This document shows positions 1-33,068 of a stretch of 52,838 nt of DNA, piece by piece. Both the position numbers and the translations under genes were made by a program. Below the pieces are notes generated by a model. That model did no database searches. It was not told the origin of the DNA and saw only the letters and a list, made by a program, of their open reading frames with translations. The stretch is from Rhodospirillales bacterium RIFCSPLOWO2_02_FULL_58_16 (GTDB lineage: Bacteria > Pseudomonadota > Alphaproteobacteria > Rhodospirillales > 2-02-FULL-58-16). Positions within the stretch are counted from its first letter, which is position 1. Every line of letters begins with the position of its first letter. The DNA is taken from positions 1 through 52,838 of the forward strand of contig MIAA01000032.1 in NCBI GenBank assembly GCA_001830425.1, in the 5' to 3' direction.

Positions 1-166
1 GATTCTTTTTGGAATGTGTGGCGCATGAGCGGCGCAAGAATCGGAATCGAAAATTGGCTTAAACTGAGATGTGTGAATACGATAGCCTTATGAAGGGGAG
101 GTTAGGAGGGGTTAAATTGTGGGAAACATCCGCCGGAGTCAGGCCGGTGGCGGCGGCTTTGAACAA
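1..166. other. Left edge, no gene recognised
   Basis: I see no convincing coding region, RNA gene or repeat here. Short open frames exist on both strands but none has a recognisable domain or a good ribosome binding site. The stretch leads into the decayed HigA-like fragment at 167-302. Confidence 0.4.
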
Positions 167-302
167 TTATGCGGCCAACCTGTCGAGCGGCCTGATATTC
201 GGACCCGGTTGTCGCTCCGGCTCTGCCGGCACTTTGGAAAGCGTGACGCGGGAAACACGCAATTCCTTTGCCACCTTCATTACCGTCAGGCCAACCGGAT
301 AG
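167..302 (-). pseudogene. HigA-like antitoxin remnant
   Basis: Directly after the stop codon of the outer-membrane protein gene, the minus strand reads YPVGLTVMKVAKELRVSRVT followed by LSKV. This is the helix-turn-helix core of HigA-type XRE antitoxins (family pattern GLTVxxxAKxLGVSRxTLSR). The family normally continues with a short loop and ISPEMALRLAK. Here the frame runs into unrelated residues, while a shifted frame gives GRAG, as expected of the loop. The usual HPGEILR-type N-terminus is missing. I read it as a fragment broken at its 5' end by the neighbouring AT-rich gene and frameshifted after the recognition helix. The call rests on about 25 residues. Confidence 0.45.
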
Positions 303-1358
303 TCATTGATCAAAGTAGTACCGCAAGCCGGCCATAAAGTTGTGAATCTTGATGATATCCGAACTGCCGCTCTTGTTTTCTCTTGTACCCGTAACATCCC
401 CGACCATCATGTATTTATACCCCAGATCAAAATCCAGATTTGTGTTTATGGGCATATTGATTCCCGCCATCAAAGCCCCGGACGGCACCCATGCGTGATT
501 GTTAAAAGTACGTTTTCCAGCGTCGCTCTTTTGGGGCACAGAAATATCGTTTGCTTTGACATACGCTCCCCCTAATCCTCCTCCCACATATGGCTTGAAG
601 GGCCATGCCACGGGCAATTCGTAATACCCATCAAGCGTCGCGTTATAGAAATCAACATTACCTGAAGGGTCAGCAGAGCCACGTTTTTTTCCCGTAACCG
701 TTCCTTCAATGCTTCCGGCGTCAAAATTCCTTCTTGCTAACTCAAATTCAAATTTGAAGGATGACCCGACATTTCGCCCCAAGGCCACCTCAAAACCGGT
801 ATTTTCAGAAAGTGTTGCTTTGCCGTGAGTGTCTTCCTTATTAAGCTCAACGTTTAGGTCTTCTGGAGCAGAATGGGCGACCCCCAGCCGTGCAAAATAT
901 CTCCTGTCAGATGAACCTATTTCTGACTTACTCGCTTTATTAATAACAATAGGCTCCTGAGGTTGTGGGATGGGCATAATCACAGGAGCAGAAGAAGCAA
1001 TTTGAGGAGCTTCAGTTTCTTTCTGTGAATGCCTGAAAGTTGTAATATTACTGATTAATTTTTTCTCAATTTCATTTCGGCTTATAGCTCCAATTTGCTG
1101 ATAAGAAGCTATTTTGACGGCCAAGTCAGTGCCTGGATATTTGGCTTCAATTTCTGCCAGCAACCTAAGCGCCTTAGTATAAAGCTCCGATGCTAAAACC
1201 GGATTATCCGAATTATCTGCCTGACGAACAAATATGGCAGCCTGCACAAATAATTTGTTCGACTCTGCAATATCATCTGCAACTGCCTGATAGGGCAAAA
1301 GAAAAATTGCCATGAAAATGGCAATGCACCAAGAGATTCGGTTCTGATATTGAAGCAT
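303..1358 (-). CDS. Outer-membrane beta-barrel protein
   Basis: The 351-residue product starts with a signal peptide (hydrophobic IAIFMAIFLLPYQAVA, cleavage probably before DDIAES). A helical, TPR-like segment follows (about residues 25-120), then a linker rich in Pro, Ile and Ala, then a C-terminal half of alternating strands typical of small OmpA/opacity-type barrels, with YVGGGLGGAYVKAN and the final strand FMAGLRYYFDQ. The start at 1358 is chosen because GGAGAAG lies just upstream on the minus strand; the longer frame to 1439 has no such site. The gene is visibly richer in A+T than its surroundings and sits among toxin-antitoxin genes, which suggests horizontal acquisition. The barrel class is inferred from pattern; its ligand or function is unknown. 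Confidence 0.65.
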   Translation of the reverse strand: MLQYQNRISWCIAIFMAIFLLPYQAVADDIAESNKLFVQAAIFVRQADNSDNPVLASELYTKALRLLAEIEAKYPGTDLAVKIASYQQIGAISRNEIEKKLISNITTFRHSQKETEAPQIASSAPVIMPIPQPQEPIVINKASKSEIGSSDRRYFARLGVAHSAPEDLNVELNKEDTHGKATLSENTGFEVALGRNVGSSFKFEFELARRNFDAGSIEGTVTGKKRGSADPSGNVDFYNATLDGYYELPVAWPFKPYVGGGLGGAYVKANDISVPQKSDAGKRTFNNHAWVPSGALMAGINMPINTNLDFDLGYKYMMVGDVTGTRENKSGSSDIIKIHNFMAGLRYYFDQ

Positions 1359-1389
1359 TATGTCTTCTCCCCAGAAAAGCTGACGCCCT

Positions 1390-1401
1390 GATGCATGCAT
1401 C
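1390..1401. promoter_or_regulatory. Perfect 12-bp palindrome, possible operator
   Basis: GATGCATGCATC is its own reverse complement. It lies in the 87-bp divergent gap between the outer-membrane protein gene (minus) and the XRE regulator gene (plus). That position fits an operator for the small regulator, but a 12-bp palindrome alone is weak evidence. Confidence 0.25.
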
Positions 1402-1445
1402 CGTATGCAGACAAGCCCGATGGCTTGAGCAAACCTCATCTACCC

Positions 1446-1694
1446 ATGAAAGACAAAAAATTACCAGCGACGATATTCGGCGAGGTGTTGCGGGAACTAC
1501 GCTTGCAGCAGGCGCTTACGCAAGACCAACTTGCCGAACGTGCGGAAACCGAGCGCAGTCATATCAGCGCCCTTGAGCGCGCCGAAAAAGGCCCGGCGCT
1601 CGCAACGATTTTTAGTCTCGCCGACGCACTGAACATTCCTGCGGGTGATTTGATTGGTCTCGTCGAACAACGGCTGAAAACACATCGACGCTGA
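1446..1694 (+). CDS. Small XRE-family HTH regulator
   Basis: This 82-residue protein is almost entirely a Cro/C1-type helix-turn-helix domain: LRLQQALTQDQLAERA (first helices), TERSHISALERAEKGP (recognition helix and the usual E-x-G turn), then IFSLADALNIPAGDLIG. Such proteins bind operator DNA as dimers and often control a neighbouring gene. It starts at the internal ATG at 1446 (MKDKK); the upstream ATG at 1395 would add 17 residues with no family similarity. It is divergent from the outer-membrane protein gene, with a short palindrome between them. No cognate toxin lies directly next to it on the same strand, so whether it is an antitoxin or a stand-alone repressor is open. Confidence 0.75.
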   Translation: MKDKKLPATIFGEVLRELRLQQALTQDQLAERAETERSHISALERAEKGPALATIFSLADALNIPAGDLIGLVEQRLKTHRR

Positions 1695-1738
1695 CAAGCT
1701 GACTCGCTGATCACAGGCCGTCCGGCAGAGGGGGGCGC

Positions 1739-2146
1739 TCATGGTTTCAAAGTCAGGTGAACCACCAATTCGGAGTATTGGCGCAACACGCCATCAGTGG
1801 TGAGTAAATAGGCAGGCAACGATTGCGCCTGTACGACCAGCAAACGATCAAACGGGTCGCGGTGACGCCAGGGTAAATTCACTAACGGGTAACAATCCTC
1901 CCCATTCACCCGCAACTCGGCAAAGCCCGTATCCCGCGCCAGCCGATGAATATCCTCGGGTGAAAAATCAAAATTCGCCCGATTCAGCGAACGCTTGATT
2001 GCAATCTCCCAGATGCTCGCGGCACTGAAATACACTGTATTGGACGCATCCGTTAAACCTGCCGCCACTTCCGGCGGCAAGCGTTCCGGCGCGAGCAATG
2101 CCGCCAGCAACACATTGGTATCCAGCAAATAAACATGCGCGGACAT
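1739..2146 (-). CDS. PIN-domain ribonuclease toxin, VapC-like
   Basis: A 135-residue PIN domain. The acidic metal-binding residues are visible: Asp9 in LLDTNVLL, Glu47 in SIWEIAIK, Asp97 and Asp100 in HRDPFDRLL, and Asp118 in LLTTDG. PIN toxins of type II modules cleave RNA, often tRNA or rRNA, when their antitoxin is degraded. The start codon follows the antitoxin stop codon with no gap (TAA then ATG), so the two are translated from one message. Length and motifs are normal for the PIN subfamily that pairs with Phd/YefM antitoxins. The gene looks intact. Its RNA target cannot be told from sequence. Confidence 0.88.
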   Translation of the reverse strand: MSAHVYLLDTNVLLAALLAPERLPPEVAAGLTDASNTVYFSAASIWEIAIKRSLNRANFDFSPEDIHRLARDTGFAELRVNGEDCYPLVNLPWRHRDPFDRLLVVQAQSLPAYLLTTDGVLRQYSELVVHLTLKP

Positions 2147-25412: not shown

Positions 25413-26933
25413 TTAATAAGTAATGTCGAACTCGACGCCCTGGGCCAGGGGCAGATCGGCGGAGTAGTTGATGGTGTTGGTGGCTCGGCGCATGTAATTC
25501 TTCCAGGCGTCCGATCCCGATTCCCGTCCGCCGCCGGTTTCCTTCTCGCCGCCGAAAGCGCCGCCGATCTCGGCGCCGGAGGGGCCGATGTTGACGTTGG
25601 CGATGCCGCAGTCGCTGCCCTCGGCCGACATGAAAATCTCGGCCTCGCGCACATCGTTGGTGAAGATGGAAGACGACAGGCCTTGAGGCACGTCATTATT
25701 GAGAGCGATAGCCTGATCCATCTCCCGGTATTTCATAATATAGAGTATAGGAGCGAAAGTTTCCTCCTTCATCGCGCCGGTCTGTTTCGGCATTTCGACC
25801 AGGGCCGGTTTGACGTAGTAAGCGTTCGGGTAGCGGTCCTTCATCGCCCGCCCGCCGCCGAAGACCGCGCCGCCCTCGCTTGCCGCCTTGCCGAGCGCCG
25901 CCTCCATCGACTGAAAAGCCGAAGCGTTGATCAACGGACCGGCCAGTACGCCGCTCTCCAGCGGGTCGCCGATGCGGATGCCGTCATAAGCGGCCTTCAG
26001 CCGCGCCGTCAGGGCGGCGTAGATGTCCTCATGGACGATCAACCGCCTGAGCGTCGTGCAACGCTGGCCGGTGGCGCCGACGGCGGCGAACAGGATGGCC
26101 TTCACCGCCAGTTCGAGGTCGGCGGACGGCGCGACGATCATGGCGTTGTTGCCGCCCAGTTCAAGCAGCGAACGCCCGAAACGGGCCGCTATCCGGGGAG
26201 CGACGGCGCGTCCCATGGCGCAGCTTCCGGTGGCGCTGATCAATTTCAGGCGGCGGTCATCAATCAGCAGTTCACCGATGTCGCGCCCGCCGATCGTCAC
26301 TTCCAGGAGAGCGTCGGGGGCGGGGCCGCCGCAGTCCTCGGCGAAGCGGCAGAGGGCGCGTTTAAACAGCGCCTTGCAGGCCAAGGCCGAGACGGGAGTA
26401 AGTTCCGAAGGCTTCCACACCACCGAATCGCCGCAAACGACGGCAACGGCAAAATTCCACGCCCAAACGGCCACCGGAAAATTAAAGGCCGAAATCACCC
26501 CTATCGGCCCCAGCGGATGCCATGTCTCCATCATCCGATGACCGGGGCGCTCGGAGGCGATGGTCAGACCGTAAAGCTGGCGCGACAGGCCGACGGCAAA
26601 CTCGCAGATGTCGATCATTTCCTGCACTTCGCCGAGGCTTTCCTGGAGAATCTTGCCGCACTCCACGGTCACCAGCCTGCCCAGCGGCTCCTTGTGGGAC
26701 CGCAGTTCCTCGCCGAACAGGCGGATCAATTGCCCGCGCACCGGCGCCGGCGCGGAGCGCCATTCAAGAAAGGCAGTTTCGGCGCGGTTGACGGCGGCAT
26801 CCAGGTCCGCCGGGTCATGGCGCCTTACCCGCGCCATCTCGGCGCCGTCAACGGGAGAACGGACGACAAGATCGCCGCTCGTCAGGTCTTCCCCGTCAAG
26901 GCCGAGGGCGGCGTAGAGGCTGCTGTAATTCAT
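25413..26933 (-). CDS. amaB: ALDH7-type aminoadipate-semialdehyde dehydrogenase
   Basis: The 506-residue NAD-dependent aldehyde dehydrogenase has the ALDH7 (antiquitin/piperideine-6-carboxylate dehydrogenase) signature: ERPGHRMMETWHPLGPIGVI, FNFPVAVWAWNFAVAVVCGD and VVWKPSELTPVSALA. The catalytic Glu is in LLELGGNNA and the catalytic Cys in GATGQRCTTLRRL. In bacteria this enzyme oxidises alpha-aminoadipate semialdehyde in lysine degradation. The ATG at 26933 is chosen by alignment to the family N-terminus; a GTG at 26957 would add eight residues. The 5' leader carries two strong GC hairpins. No other lysine-catabolism gene lies nearby, so the substrate is inferred. Confidence 0.85.
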   Translation of the reverse strand: MNYSSLYAALGLDGEDLTSGDLVVRSPVDGAEMARVRRHDPADLDAAVNRAETAFLEWRSAPAPVRGQLIRLFGEELRSHKEPLGRLVTVECGKILQESLGEVQEMIDICEFAVGLSRQLYGLTIASERPGHRMMETWHPLGPIGVISAFNFPVAVWAWNFAVAVVCGDSVVWKPSELTPVSALACKALFKRALCRFAEDCGGPAPDALLEVTIGGRDIGELLIDDRRLKLISATGSCAMGRAVAPRIAARFGRSLLELGGNNAMIVAPSADLELAVKAILFAAVGATGQRCTTLRRLIVHEDIYAALTARLKAAYDGIRIGDPLESGVLAGPLINASAFQSMEAALGKAASEGGAVFGGGRAMKDRYPNAYYVKPALVEMPKQTGAMKEETFAPILYIMKYREMDQAIALNNDVPQGLSSSIFTNDVREAEIFMSAEGSDCGIANVNIGPSGAEIGGAFGGEKETGGGRESGSDAWKNYMRRATNTINYSADLPLAQGVEFDITY

Positions 26934-27075: not shown

Positions 27076-27240
27076 CTATCCTATTAAAGACAACAATTCA
27101 TCCTTAATTCGAAGTTTTTGTTTTTTCAGCGTGAGAACTTCATCTTCATCAGGCTTCGGGCGACTGTGTTGTTCGTCAAGGGCTTCTTCGAGAACTTGGT
27201 GTTTTGCTTTCAGCGCCTCGATTCTCTCCGCCAGACTCAT
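27076..27240 (-). CDS. YdcH-family (DUF465) small protein
   Basis: This 54-residue gene is too short for most ORF callers and was read directly from the minus strand. The protein begins MSLAERIEALKAKHQVLEEA and ends LKKQKLRIKDELLSLIG, the heptad-rich pattern of the YdcH/DUF465 family. A strong site (GGGGAGG, six bases before the ATG at 27240) supports it. The protein should be a helical coiled coil; the family is common in proteobacteria but has no firm function. A second family member lies 151 bp away on the opposite strand. Confidence 0.85.
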   Translation of the reverse strand: MSLAERIEALKAKHQVLEEALDEQHSRPKPDEDEVLTLKKQKLRIKDELLSLIG

Positions 27241-27391
27241 GTCATTCCTCCCCAAAGTGGATACGCCGACTCGACCGTTGATTATACTGCATGCGGGGCC
27301 TTATATGAAACAAAAAATACCGTATAACGCCGTTACCTTTTTTGAAAAACATCTGGTATGATTTTACGAGGCTGGTCGGATATAAGAAACC

Positions 27392-27592
27392 ATGGAAGAC
27401 AAGAAATCACTGATGAAACGGCTTAAGGAATTGTCAGCCGAGCATCGCGCCCTTGATGATGAGATCGCCCGCGTCACCGAGGACGGCTCCTTCAGCCAAC
27501 TGGAAATGCAACGCCTTAAAAAGCGCAAGCTGGCGATCAAGGACAACATCCTTAAAATCGAGAACAGCCTGTTGCCCGACATTATCGCCTGA
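27392..27592 (+). CDS. YdcH-family (DUF465) small protein, second copy
   Basis: A 66-residue coiled-coil protein beginning MEDKKSLMKRLKELSAEHRA and containing LKKRKLAIKDNILKIEN. The core LKK-R/Q-KL-x-IKD is shared with the neighbouring divergent YdcH gene, so the two are paralogues. Its last 11 bp overlap the end of the degenerate GGDEF gene on the other strand. Function of the family is unknown. Confidence 0.85.
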   Translation: MEDKKSLMKRLKELSAEHRALDDEIARVTEDGSFSQLEMQRLKKRKLAIKDNILKIENSLLPDIIA

Positions 27593-28475: not shown

Positions 28476-29252
28476 ATGATTAATTTATTTCGTAAATCAG
28501 CGCCCCTCGCTCTTTTGCTTGTCTTTATCGGCGGCTGCGCCGAAGAACCGGAGAACGCGAAAGAGGCGGGAATTACCGAATCCGTGCATCAGGCGGCGAT
28601 GGCCTCCCAACAAAAACATGACTATGCCTCGGCGGCGAAACACTACCGGAACCTCCACGAGAAACATCCTGAGGACCTCGGCGTGCTGCTGGAGCTGGCC
28701 AAGTCCCTGCGTTACATAGGATCATCCGCCGAGGCTGCCGGAATTATGGAAGCCAAAATAAATACATTCGCCGAATTTGCTCCGTTTCTGATGGAACTGG
28801 GCAAGGCAAAACTGGCGGCGGGAGCGGCAGACGAAGCCGTCGGCTATCTGAAAATCGCCACGGAAAAAGATGCGGGAAACTGGGAAGCCTATTCCGCCAT
28901 GGGCATCGCTTATGATATGCTGCAATTATTCGACAAGGCCCTGGAATCTTATCGGAAAGCTGACGCGCTTTCTCCCGGCAACTCCGTCATTTTGAATAAC
29001 ATGGCCATCTCTTATGCCCAGGCAGGGGACGTAAAGACCGCGATCATCACCCTTAAACACGCCGCCAACGTCGGTCGCCGCAACCTGCAAATTCGCCAAA
29101 ATCTGGCCCTTTTTCACGGCATAGCCGGCAACATGGATGAAGCCGAAGCGATCGCCAGAATGGATTTGGGCGAAGATGATGTCCGAAACAATCTGGCCTT
29201 TTATTATTTGTTCCACAAAAATCAGAAACCGACAGCCCCGGCGACCCCATAG
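28476..29252 (+). CDS. TPR lipoprotein, TadD-like
   Basis: The 258-residue protein begins with a lipoprotein signal (LALLLVFIGG-C, lipobox at Cys21) and carries about four tetratricopeptide repeats (ASAAKHYRNLHEKHPEDLGV, AVGYLKIATEKDAGNWEAYS, ALESYRKADALSPGNSVILN and one more). This layout matches TadD-type and other pilus-assembly lipoproteins. A TTG six bases upstream is an alternative start. It is first in a run with a Crp/Fnr regulator and an ExeA-like ATPase, and an Flp-type pilin lies 3.6 kb away. The assembly role is inferred; TPR lipoproteins also serve in other envelope machines. Confidence 0.7.
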   Translation: MINLFRKSAPLALLLVFIGGCAEEPENAKEAGITESVHQAAMASQQKHDYASAAKHYRNLHEKHPEDLGVLLELAKSLRYIGSSAEAAGIMEAKINTFAEFAPFLMELGKAKLAAGAADEAVGYLKIATEKDAGNWEAYSAMGIAYDMLQLFDKALESYRKADALSPGNSVILNNMAISYAQAGDVKTAIITLKHAANVGRRNLQIRQNLALFHGIAGNMDEAEAIARMDLGEDDVRNNLAFYYLFHKNQKPTAPATP

Positions 29253-29267
29253 CAGGATATTCGCGCC

Positions 29268-29972
29268 TTGAACAAAAAAACCCCACCGCGCATCGACCCG
29301 GAAAGAAACCTCAACGGCGCATCCCTTCTGGTCGAGGTTCCTCCTGATATAATCGCCGATATCGAAAAAAAATGTGAGTGGTTTGAGTATGCTCCCAACG
29401 AAATCATCATTGATCTCGCCGACACCTCGACCTGCGTCTACTTCATCGTCAAGGGCAAGGTCAAGGCGATGGACTTCCTTGCTGAAAACAAGCAGGTCGC
29501 CCTGGCCGAGCTTGGCGAAGGAGACTCATTCGGCGAGTTGTCGGCCATAGATTCGAAAAAACGTTCGGCGCGGGTTACCGCCATCGAGCCTACACTTGTC
29601 GCCAAGTTGCCGAGCAAGGATTTCCGGCAGTTGATGTTGAATTGTCCGGAATCGGCTCTGGCCCTGCTGAAGAGATTCGCCGGCTTTATCCGCACCCTGA
29701 ACACCCGCCTTACCACCCTCAGCACCTTCACCCCCCACCAGCGGATTTATTATGAATTGCTGCGCATCTGCGCGCCCAACACTTCCGGCGACGGCTCCTG
29801 GGTTATTTCCAATATTCCCAATCACTCTGAAATAGCTTCCTGGGTAGGCACGGAAAAAGAAGTCGTCGCCGACGCCATCGGTAAACTGGCCCGCGACGGA
29901 GTGGTCGAACGGAAACATCGAAGCCTTATCATCAAGGATCACGCCCGCCTTTACCGGCTGGCCGAACAATAA
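29268..29972 (+). CDS. Crp/Fnr-family transcription regulator
   Basis: The 234-residue protein has a cNMP-binding fold with an apparently complete phosphate cassette (DSFGELSAIDSKKRSARV) and a C-terminal winged helix (NHSEIASWVGTEKEVVADAI, then GVVERKHRSLIIKD). The TTG start at 29268 is the only good in-frame start near the fold. It follows the TPR lipoprotein by 15 bp and lies 35 bp before the ExeA-like gene, suggesting a shared unit. It resembles the regulator at 17912-18616 only in family. It may control the surrounding envelope genes. Confidence 0.85.
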   Translation: MNKKTPPRIDPERNLNGASLLVEVPPDIIADIEKKCEWFEYAPNEIIIDLADTSTCVYFIVKGKVKAMDFLAENKQVALAELGEGDSFGELSAIDSKKRSARVTAIEPTLVAKLPSKDFRQLMLNCPESALALLKRFAGFIRTLNTRLTTLSTFTPHQRIYYELLRICAPNTSGDGSWVISNIPNHSEIASWVGTEKEVVADAIGKLARDGVVERKHRSLIIKDHARLYRLAEQ

Positions 29973-30007
29973 ATTCCGCTCCGTCATCATAACGAGCTGT
30001 TCAGCGT

Positions 30008-31663
30008 ATGTTTCGATCATTCTTCGGCATCAAGGAGAATCCGTTCTCCAATACGCCCGATCCGCGCTATGTGTTCATGAGCAGGCGCCATCAGGAGGCG
30101 TTGGCGCATCTGGTTTACGGCGTACAGGGCGGGAACGGTTTTGTTCTGCTGACCGGCGAAGTGGGAACAGGCAAGACGACAATAAGCCGCTGTCTGGTAG
30201 AGCAACTTCCCAAGAATGTGGATATGGCCCTTTGCATCAATCCCCGTCTGAACGAATTTGAATTGCTGGCCACCATCTGCGACGAGATGGGCGTCTTTTA
30301 CCCGATATTGACCAACAGCATCAAAACCCTGATGGACAAAATCAACAGGCATCTCATTGAGACCCATGCCCGAGGGCGCCGCGCCGTTCTGATCATCGAC
30401 GAGGCGCAGAATCTCGCCCCCCGGGTGCTTGAACAGGTGCGGCTGCTTACCAACCTGGAAACCGCCAGCGCCAAGCTTTTGCAGATCATTCTTATCGGTC
30501 AACCGGAGTTGAAAGAACTTCTCGGTCGGGTGGAGTTACGTCAGGTAAATCAGCGCATCACCGCACGTTATCACCTTGATCCGCTTAACATCGAAGAGGC
30601 GCGGGCCTACATACGGCATCGGCTCAAAATCGGCGGGCCGGCGGAGGATATATTCAGGCCCGGCGCCGTCACGGAAATATTCAAGCGGTCACACGGCGTC
30701 CCGCGCCTGATCAACAGCATTTGCGAACGTTGTCTGCTCGGCGCTTACGCCAAAAACGTCCGTTATATCGATGAAAAGCTGGCCCGCTCCGCCGCCGATG
30801 ACGTACTCGGCTTCCCTCGTCGGCGGTCAGTCTTCGGCAGGATCGCCGCAATAGCCGCCGTTATCGCCGCTTCGGCTCTTTTTGTCGGTCTTGATCCCCT
30901 GCATATGAGACTGAATTCCAAACTTTCCCCATCGCCGCCGGAAGCTCAACAACCGCCGGCTATCGAACGCCCGCCGGAAGTTCAACAACCGCCGGCAGAG
31001 CCGGCAATTGAACAAACGGCACAAAACGCGCCGGCGGAGATTTCCATCGAATATCTGTTCCGAAACCCGGAGTTAGCGGGAGACATAAGCACCGCCATGT
31101 CCAAACTATTCGCTATGTGGAAAGTGGAATACGTCGCTCCCGGCAAACCGGACCTGTGCGCCGGCGCCTCTTACGCCGGGATAAGATGCCTGCGATGGCA
31201 TGGAGACTGGCAAGCCCTGAACGATATCAACCGGCCCGCATTGATCTCCCTTGCCGCAGGGGAGGAAAAACGTATTTATGCGGTGGTTACGGCCCTTGAC
31301 GGCAACAACGTCACCATTGACGTCGGCGGCGGCAAAATACAAACCGATACCCGCAATCTCACCCCGTTCTGGTCGGGCGACTATATGATGCTGTGGAAGC
31401 CGCCGCCGGGTTATTGGCGAGTCATCAGGCCCGGCATGAAAGGCAAGGACGTGGCGTGGCTTAGGGATCGCCTGTCGGAAATCCAGGGCGAGCCTATAGA
31501 ATCTGATGACCGGGACAGCTTTGATGAGGCGCTTAAGATTCGACTTATTTCATTTCAGCGCAGCCGAAAACTGATCGACGACGGCGCCGCCGGCGCGCTG
31601 ACCCTGACCTATATCAACACCCTCATCAAAGACCCGGCAACTCCCGTCCTGCGGAATCAATAG
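30008..31663 (+). CDS. ExeA/GspA-like AAA ATPase with peptidoglycan-binding end
   Basis: The 551-residue protein begins MFRSFFGIKENPFSNTPDPR, the standard opening of ExeA/GspA/MshM proteins. The AAA domain shows Walker A GEVGTGKT (50-57) and Walker B LIIDEAQNL. A single transmembrane helix follows (about 275-295), then a Pro/Gln-rich periplasmic spacer, a C39-peptidase-like fold and a C-terminal peptidoglycan-binding domain (GMKGKDVAWLRDRL). In Aeromonas, ExeA with ExeB helps place the type II secretin in the cell wall; MshM works with pili. The next gene encodes the matching GspB-like protein. No secretin or other gsp gene is in the window. Confidence 0.9.
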   Translation: MFRSFFGIKENPFSNTPDPRYVFMSRRHQEALAHLVYGVQGGNGFVLLTGEVGTGKTTISRCLVEQLPKNVDMALCINPRLNEFELLATICDEMGVFYPILTNSIKTLMDKINRHLIETHARGRRAVLIIDEAQNLAPRVLEQVRLLTNLETASAKLLQIILIGQPELKELLGRVELRQVNQRITARYHLDPLNIEEARAYIRHRLKIGGPAEDIFRPGAVTEIFKRSHGVPRLINSICERCLLGAYAKNVRYIDEKLARSAADDVLGFPRRRSVFGRIAAIAAVIAASALFVGLDPLHMRLNSKLSPSPPEAQQPPAIERPPEVQQPPAEPAIEQTAQNAPAEISIEYLFRNPELAGDISTAMSKLFAMWKVEYVAPGKPDLCAGASYAGIRCLRWHGDWQALNDINRPALISLAAGEEKRIYAVVTALDGNNVTIDVGGGKIQTDTRNLTPFWSGDYMMLWKPPPGYWRVIRPGMKGKDVAWLRDRLSEIQGEPIESDDRDSFDEALKIRLISFQRSRKLIDDGAAGALTLTYINTLIKDPATPVLRNQ

Positions 31664-31670
31664 GAGCATC

Positions 31671-32894
31671 ATGTCCCTGATTCTCGACGCCCTGAAGAAA
31701 TCCGAAGAGGAGCGGAAAAGCGGAGCCGTCCCTGAGTCCGCCGCCGTCCTGAAAGACGCGCCGATGAACAAGCGCCGCCTGTGGCCGTCGGTCGCCGCCG
31801 GCGGTTTGGTCTTGTTCATCGTCGTCGTCGGCGTTTTCCTGTGGCGGTCAAGCATGGTTGAGACGCCTCCGCCGACGGCTGAACAAACGCCGGTAGCGCC
31901 GGTGGGGCCGGAGCCTCCCAAACTTACGATTAAAGCGCCACCCCCGGCAATCATCGAACCCGCGCCGGAACCGGCCAAGGTCGTTGTTGAACCCGCGCCC
32001 GCGCCCGAACCGAAACCCGCAACGGCTCCGCTCCTCCCCCCCGCCATTGACGTCAAGATTCCTGTCGTTTCCATTCCTCAGGCCGCCGTCGCCAAATCCC
32101 GCGCCGGCGAAGCCGGCGGGGCGGCGGCCCACAACAAGCGGGGCCAAGCGTTTGAACAGGAAGGACTTTATGATCGCGCCATCGAAGAATACACCAACGC
32201 CATTTTGCTGAAACCTGATTATGCGGAAGCCTATTTAGGTCGCGGCTGGACTCAGGAGGCAAAGGGAAACCATGAACAGGCCATCGACAATTTCAGCCGG
32301 GCCTTGCAGGCGTCTCCCTCTTATGGCGAGGCTTTTTTCGGACGCGGCTGGGTCCATGAGCAACTGGGGCGCTTCGATTCGGCGATTGAGGACTATACCC
32401 AGGCGATCCGTCATGCGCCGGATCTTTCCGACGCTTATTTCAGCAGAGGGTTCCTCAATTTTTACAACGAACAGCCGGACAAGGCGGCTGATGACTTTTC
32501 AAAATCTCTCCGCAAGGCGAATAAAAGCCTCGTCCCCTACGCCCTTCTTTGGCGCTATTTGAGCCGTGTCCGATCCGGCGGCGACGGCAAAAAGGAACTG
32601 GAGGAAAATGTCGGCGGCATAAACCTGAATGCATGGCCCGGCATTATTGTCGCTCTGTACATGGGAAAGGCTGATCCCTCGCAGGTGCTCGCCAAGACCA
32701 AGGATAACAATACGAAAAAACAGAGCGAAAACGAATGCGTCGCCTTCTTTTTCCTGGGGCAATACCACCTTGTGCAGGGCGACAAGGATAAAGCGGCGGC
32801 ATTTTTCCGTAAAACCCTGGACACGGGCGTCACCGGCTATCGGCAATACGAAGCCGCGAAAACAGAACTGCGGATTCTGGGAGCGCTTAAGTAA
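31671..32894 (+). CDS. GspB/MshN-like membrane protein with TPR repeats
   Basis: The 407-residue protein begins MSLILDALKKSEEERKSG, the conserved N-terminus of GspB/ExeB/MshN partners of ExeA-type ATPases. A transmembrane helix (about 43-62) is followed by a long Pro/Ala-rich spacer and then tetratricopeptide repeats (AYLGRGWTQEAKGNHEQAID, AFFGRGWVHEQLGRFDSAIE and others). It begins 7 bp after the ATPase gene, consistent with a two-protein complex across the inner membrane. GspB proper has a different C-terminal domain, so MshN-like TPR architecture is the closer match. Confidence 0.82.
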   Translation: MSLILDALKKSEEERKSGAVPESAAVLKDAPMNKRRLWPSVAAGGLVLFIVVVGVFLWRSSMVETPPPTAEQTPVAPVGPEPPKLTIKAPPPAIIEPAPEPAKVVVEPAPAPEPKPATAPLLPPAIDVKIPVVSIPQAAVAKSRAGEAGGAAAHNKRGQAFEQEGLYDRAIEEYTNAILLKPDYAEAYLGRGWTQEAKGNHEQAIDNFSRALQASPSYGEAFFGRGWVHEQLGRFDSAIEDYTQAIRHAPDLSDAYFSRGFLNFYNEQPDKAADDFSKSLRKANKSLVPYALLWRYLSRVRSGGDGKKELEENVGGINLNAWPGIIVALYMGKADPSQVLAKTKDNNTKKQSENECVAFFFLGQYHLVQGDKDKAAAFFRKTLDTGVTGYRQYEAAKTELRILGALK

Positions 32895-32897
32895 AAG

Positions 32898-33068
32898 TTA
32901 TAAATTATTAGAAACCGTATTTGAAATATCGTTATATAAATTGCCCATGCTGTCGGCATAAGTATTCAACGAAACAACAATCGCCAGAAATATAAGAGCG
33001 GCAATAAGTCCATATTCTATGGCTGTGGCGCCTGCTTCATTGTTGATCAGCCTTATTAATATTTTCAT
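32898..33068 (-). CDS. Flp/Fap-type pilin
   Basis: This 56-residue gene was read directly from the minus strand. The protein starts MKILIRLINNEAGATAIEYG and continues LIAALIFLAIVV, the signature of Flp/TadA-type prepilins: a basic leader, the GATAIEYGLIAALI motif with the conserved Glu and Tyr, and one hydrophobic helix. GAGAGAGAATC lies before the ATG at 33068. Prepilin peptidase would cleave near Gly13-Ala14. Its stop lies 3 bp from the stop of the GspB-like gene, so the two converge. No tad ATPase, platform, secretin or prepilin peptidase gene lies in the window. Confidence 0.88.
   Translation of the reverse strand: MKILIRLINNEAGATAIEYGLIAALIFLAIVVSLNTYADSMGNLYNDISNTVSNNL

Follow-up and report, generated by a model that had tools for sequence, protein, structure and literature searches.

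A GspA/GspB-type gene pair with an NlpI-like domain linked to a Tad pilus subtype in Rhodospirillales

Introduction

The closest described relatives of the locus reported here are the GspA-GspB (ExeA-ExeB) pair of type II secretion systems, the MshM-MshN pair of MSHA pili, the pilotin TadD of Tad pili and the E. coli protein NlpI. According to the ExeAB/GspAB work as it is cited in PMC9239104, GspAB inserts secretins through peptidoglycan. In Pseudomonas aeruginosa, TadD serves as the pilotin of the secretin RcpA and resembles PilF (PMC10499894), while MshN is the only TadD homologue reported among type IV filaments (PMC6668835, PMC10499894). The homology of TadD and MshN was also noted by Denise et al., who left open whether Tad acquired its secretin together with TadD/MshN (PMC6668835). 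NlpI acts as a hydrolase adaptor and recruits cell-wall hydrolases in E. coli (PMC7049810).

How the Tad secretin passes through peptidoglycan is not settled, which is the reason for our interest in a module that combines relatives of these proteins. In the open-access literature searched, we found no description of GspA/GspB in a Tad locus, of NlpI together with GspB, or of a Crp protein with tad genes.

Gene content and order of the locus

The window analysed is the whole stretch of 52,838 nucleotides from the genome of Rhodospirillales bacterium RIFCSPLOWO2_02_FULL_58_16. It contains an apparent operon of four genes on the + strand (28476-32894), which are separated by intergenic gaps of 15, 35 and 7 bases. 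The first gene (28476..29252) codes for a TadD-like TPR lipoprotein of 258 aa with a lipobox of IGG followed by the cysteine, a candidate pilotin, and the second (29268..29972) for a Crp/Fnr regulator of 234 aa with cNMP_binding and HTH_Crp_2 domain matches. They are followed by the genes for a GspA/ExeA-type ATPase of 551 aa with AAA, C39-like and PG-binding domains (30008..31663) and for a GspB/MshN-like protein of 407 aa with the N-terminal motif MSLILDALKKSEEERK, a TM helix and TPRs (31671..32894). A gene for a Flp/Fap pilin of 56 aa (45 bits) lies on the - strand at the operon end (32898..33068) and converges with it. The initial annotation had named these five genes from the letters alone, and all of them are present at 28476-33068; its description of genes running together with Flp converging on them likewise agrees with the gaps and strands given above. 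The operon is flanked by genes for GGDEF, response regulator/histidine kinase and CheY-like proteins, which are outside of the conserved set.

Conservation with a Tad subtype

The order of lipoprotein, CRP, ATPase and GspB-like genes recurs in at least seven other loci; the arrangement thus exceeds chance, and the genes are indeed conserved together. The four-gene operon adjoins Tad genes in genomes G005, G011, G022, G043 and G088 and in the Rhodospirillales MAG with locus L086, and it adjoins TadE genes in G004. The convergent arrangement of Flp is repeated in G004 (L064), and in G043 (L076) the Flp gene is located between those for CRP and the ATPase. As read from their loci, the Magnetovibrionaceae (family f21, including Magnetovibrio blakemorei) carry the lipoprotein, CRP and Flp genes in the Tad locus, and the GspA/GspB-like pair is present but away from Tad.

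Two further gene associations were observed in these loci. Beside the TadE genes, the Tad loci of relatives repeatedly code for a protein of about 365 aa (L066:7224-8321, L067:1065-2162, L075:4904-6028, L086:624-1712), which is also encoded at C51:17368-18507 in the window's own genome. Moreover, a divergent response-regulator gene adjoins the GspA-like gene in nine Magnetovibrionaceae loci (L069, L079, L080, L081, L083, L084, L179, L180, L185); the two regulators that were read include an HD-GYP-like part, and a small gene for about 145 aa lies between both genes in L069 and L080.

We then counted the carriers of three markers among 120 genomes of the order, using cut-offs set at gaps in the score lists (E<1e-85 for the ATPase, E<1e-100 for TadZ of the Tad subtype and E<1e-60 for the CRP). 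The GspA-type ATPase was found in 20 genomes, the subtype TadZ in 18 and the CRP in 19. ATPase and TadZ occurred together in 17 genomes, the ATPase only in three, TadZ only in one and neither in 99, which means that the ATPase is present in 17/18 genomes with the Tad subtype vs. 3/102 others. The corresponding counts for CRP and TadZ were 17 with both, two with CRP only, one with TadZ only and 100 with neither. Fisher's test gave p ~1e-16 for co-occurrence if shared ancestry is ignored, and the pattern repeats across the families f1, f3, f14, f21 and f27. Where a genome of the order has Tad subtypes other than this one only, it is devoid of this ATPase, with the exception of family f31, and the same applies within families f1 and f27 to genomes with another or no Tad subtype. 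In 13 genomes, the genes for the CRP and TadZ share a contig and are no more than about 10 kb apart, and the CRP orthologues have at least 50% identity. Because G041 contains the Tad subtype, the regulator and the lipoprotein with no GspA detected, the subtype does not strictly depend on the GspA/GspB-like pair. Gene content, operon and conservation with Tad can be read directly from sequence and context, and the link of the module to Tad is strong.

A census of T2SSE and secretin genes in 22 genomes revealed ten GspA carriers in which RcpA was the sole secretin and TadA the sole full T2SSE motor found, with no partner type II machine detected (G001, G005, G011, G043, G049, G075, G086, G096, G103 and G117; all drafts except G075, which consists of one contig). 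Because the Tad secretin is the only one found there, neither a type II nor an MSHA machine is available to the pair in these ten carriers. Genome G022 encodes a second GspE and secretin on contig C125, and its GspA/GspB-like pair lies with Tad on C118.

Tad core genes and a second filament system in the same genome

The initial annotation had stated that no core secretion gene is present. This is correct for the locus but not for the genome, which encodes two such systems. Contig C51 carries a Tad cluster with genes for TadC, TadB, TadA, TadZ, CpaD, RcpA and CpaB, two TadE-like genes and one TadG-like gene, and contig C30 codes for Flp and for a peptidase of the TadV type. Among the genes of the C51 Tad cluster, a TadD was not observed. 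A different system is encoded on contig C3, consisting of a GspE with an FHA domain, GspF, a secretin with a Secretin_N domain, pilins, a PilD-like peptidase and PilMN/PilO-like proteins. With the Tad core on C51 and the module inside the tad loci of relatives, the earlier suggestion of an accessory set for a pilus made elsewhere is supported.

In principle, the GspA/GspB-like pair might mainly serve the C3 GspE-secretin filament, which is MSHA/type II-like, instead of Tad in this genome. In favour of this, the C3 filament cluster has no GspA/MshM of its own, and the 2.73-Mb genome encodes no GspA-type ATPase besides that of the window. We nevertheless regard it as unlikely: an orthologue of the C3 secretin is missing from the 119 other genomes of the order tested (next best match, 73 bits), whereas the module is shared among them, its genes are kept in the tad loci of relatives, and ten relatives carry its ATPase with RcpA as the sole secretin. 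Because its secretin is without orthologues in the order sample, the C3 system was rejected as a general partner of the module, and we continue with Tad as the preferred one. As a separate observation, the C3 cluster (C3:1-18600 of the window's genome, G000; L004, L007) is rich in phospho-signalling parts, namely the FHA domain on GspE, a kinase-FGE-sulfatase fusion, a PP2C-like gene recognised by eye and a cyclase-FHA protein.

An NlpI-like domain in the GspB-like partner

The partner protein consists of the MSLILDALKKSEEERK motif, a predicted TM helix at residues ~41-59, a Pro-rich linker and an NlpI-fold TPR domain at ~150-407. A GspB is recognised by the N-terminal motif MSxILDALxKSE and a TM helix in a protein encoded beside GspA, and the partner shows all of these features. 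The module therefore resembles GspA-GspB (ExeA-ExeB) in both components, an AAA ATPase with C39-like and PG-binding domains and a partner starting with MSxILDALxKSExER plus a TM helix, but it is found with Tad instead of a T2SS and differs in the C-terminal part of the partner. The T2SSB/HR domain (PF16537) is absent from the window partner and from 4/4 Tad-type partners scanned, which contain TPRs instead, while it is present in 6/6 scanned partners of other GspAs.

The AF2 model of the partner has a pLDDT of 81, with values above 90 in the domain. The top seven VIA matches of this model were all NlpI chains (Z 22.2-22.8, rmsd 3.6-4.0, 24-26% identity over ~242 residues), and the next fold followed at Z 18.3. 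The similarity to E. coli NlpI includes the C-terminal cap, and the C-terminal 123 residues match NlpI and no other NCBIfam family, so the match goes beyond generic TPRs. The NlpI equivalog score of 105 bits stays below the cut-off of 250, and the partner is TM-anchored instead of having a lipobox; it is NlpI-like in fold only. Unlike NlpI, which is an outer-membrane lipoprotein, the domain is attached to an inner-membrane anchor that resembles GspB. As judged by sequence and context, the HR domain of GspB is replaced by an NlpI-like TPR domain in the Tad-type partner. The shared fold does not prove a hydrolase-adaptor function, and a docking of hydrolases to this domain is suggested by analogy to NlpI. 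Relatives of the NlpI-like domain that are devoid of the GspB N-terminus were observed at L077:686-1876 and L078:1693-2853 in genomes without a GspA-type ATPase (G009 and G007, respectively).

The combination of an ATPase with a TPR partner is also reminiscent of MshM-MshN. In contrast to that pair, the ATPase of the module has a PG-binding end, a TadD-like lipoprotein is encoded separately, and most carriers have no MSHA core. MshN is defined as a TPR protein occurring with MshM in an MSHA locus; the TPRs are present in the partner, and its locus is Tad-linked. Downstream of the MshM-type loci of the order, no MshN was seen, and PilD or EPS genes are located there instead.

The NlpI fold of the partner, the general role of NlpI as hydrolase adaptor in E. 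coli (PMC7049810) and the unlinked position of the pair in Magnetovibrionaceae would all be consistent with a general NlpI-like wall-remodelling scaffold, which would be connected to Tad only by shared regulation or history. This appears improbable to us in view of the near-perfect co-occurrence with one Tad subtype, which extends to the comparisons within families f1 and f27, and because ATPases with the architecture of GspA are associated with secretin assembly wherever they have been studied. We therefore prefer to regard the pair as an accessory of the Tad subtype.

The GspA-type ATPase

The ATPase shows the full GspA/ExeA layout, with the AAA domain at residues 42-172, the C39-like domain at 366-463 and the PG-binding domain at 479-534. 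The matches to AAA_22 (E 3e-25) and GspA_C39-like (PF21327, E 4e-8, above cut-off) were accompanied by a match of 20.5 bits to PG_binding_1 (PF01471), which is slightly below the 23-bit cut-off. The Walker motifs are conserved (GEVGTGKTT and VLIIDEAQ). A profile made from the ATPase and six relatives matched the solved periplasmic part of GspA (4g54) at E 2.5e-20, as well as PG-binding structures. In a quick tree of the AAA domains, all Tad-type GspAs of the order were joined (SH-aLRT 93), while those of family f31 were placed among type II GspAs; the f31 genomes (G068, G079) encode a GspE with an MshEN domain, and their GspA partner keeps the HR domain. Outside of the order, a GspB-type gene adjoins the GspA relatives examined.

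An identity as XrtA/PEP-CTERM exopolysaccharide-locus ATPase (TIGR03015) was rejected on domain content and context as extremely improbable, because the AAA domain reaches 267 bits vs. a curated cut-off of 324.5, the C39-like and PG-binding part of the window protein is missing from the short EPS ATPases, and no polysaccharide genes lie beside the window ATPase, even though distant relatives of 35-40% identity within the order occur in loci recognised by eye as such polysaccharide loci (L187, L189, L190, L193).

The TPR lipoprotein as a candidate pilotin

The lipobox cysteine is residue 21 of the lipoprotein and is invariant in 17 orthologues. Its AF2 model (pLDDT 90) resembles many TPR proteins, and the closest solved folds include two pilotins, PilW (Z 20.5 over 211 residues) and PilF (Z 19.1 over 215 residues), both of which align along almost the whole chain. 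No TadD was present among the matches to solved structures listed, either by sequence or by fold, and the protein could not be matched directly in sequence to any known TadD. TadD proteins are recognised as TPR lipoproteins encoded in Tad loci, and the Tad loci of relatives carry this lipoprotein. It thus resembles TadD of the RcpA-TadD pair of P. aeruginosa as a small TPR lipoprotein encoded with Tad genes and with a fold near PilW/PilF, but it is divergent in sequence, and its RcpA binding is putative. Based on its position in Tad loci, its lipobox and its modelled fold, it is likely a TadD-type pilotin. The genome paper on Varunaivibrio reported no pilotin (PMC10305379), and the module offers a candidate for Magnetovibrio-type Tad systems.

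The Crp/Fnr regulator and a recurrent upstream site

The regulator contains a cNMP-binding domain at residues 40-124 (E 8e-19) and an HTH_Crp_2 domain at 158-230 (E 3e-9). For 19 loci, we searched the 350 bp that precede the lipoprotein gene for dyads. With 5-base arms, the initial search yielded only 3/19 loci, and the 4-base arm with N6 was noticed there and was therefore not a blind choice; the motif was then ranked against all other 4-base-arm dyads. GTGA-N6-TCAC came first of 2560 dyads, being present in 8/19 loci, with the next independent dyad in 2/19. The site also precedes the genes for CpaB, TadE/TadG and Flp in several relatives' loci, and locus L167 contains five copies vs. 0.26 expected. 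In the genome of the window, one exact copy occurs in 40 kb of C51, where it forms a predicted Crp-type site about 65 bases before tadG (C51:20743, GTGACCGGCATCAC); no exact copy is present in the window, including the region upstream of the operon. The recurrence of the site is apparent from the loci themselves, and the regulator may be linked through it to the tad locus in trans, as a prediction only.

Proposed role of the module

The locus probably represents a Tad accessory module, which would support secretin assembly through peptidoglycan and regulate tad genes. The lipoprotein would act as TadD-type pilotin and assist the secretin RcpA/CpaC in reaching the outer membrane and assembling there. 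The ATPase would bind peptidoglycan through its periplasmic end and, together with its membrane-anchored GspB-like partner, may allow the RcpA secretin to enter or cross the wall, in analogy to the action of ExeA/ExeB on the secretin of type II systems. The NlpI-like TPR domain could make a new contact with the secretin or, alternatively, dock enzymes that cut the wall, and the Crp/Fnr protein may control tad promoters via GTGA-N6-TCAC, probably in response to cyclic nucleotides. The term "hybrid" in the initial annotation should be refined: the module is no mix of pilus systems, but one Tad subtype has taken over a secretin-assembly pair of the GspA/GspB type.

A more specific version, which we consider possible but would not yet favour, is that this Tad subtype crosses the wall by an ATP-driven GspA/GspB-type machine with an NlpI-type adaptor recruiting endopeptidases and a dedicated cyclic-nucleotide regulator. 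If true, a pilus machine would bring wall-cutting endopeptidases to the site of its own assembly; the NlpI-like swap suggests that pilus assembly and hydrolysis of the wall are concretely linked. Because a TadD-like pilotin and a GspA/MshN-like pair are found in Tad loci with RcpA as the sole secretin, the acquisition question left open by Denise et al. becomes cleanly testable.

Other features of the window

The left end of the window (1-2000) has a GC content of 0.49, compared to ~0.6 elsewhere. A tRNA-Ser predicted by ARAGORN at 26083-26157 is located inside an aldehyde-dehydrogenase-like frame on the opposite strand and is probably a false call. Finally, two side-by-side divergent genes (27076-27255 and 27392-27592) code for small proteins of 59 and 66 aa with charged helices, which are similar to each other and DUF465/YdcH-like by eye.
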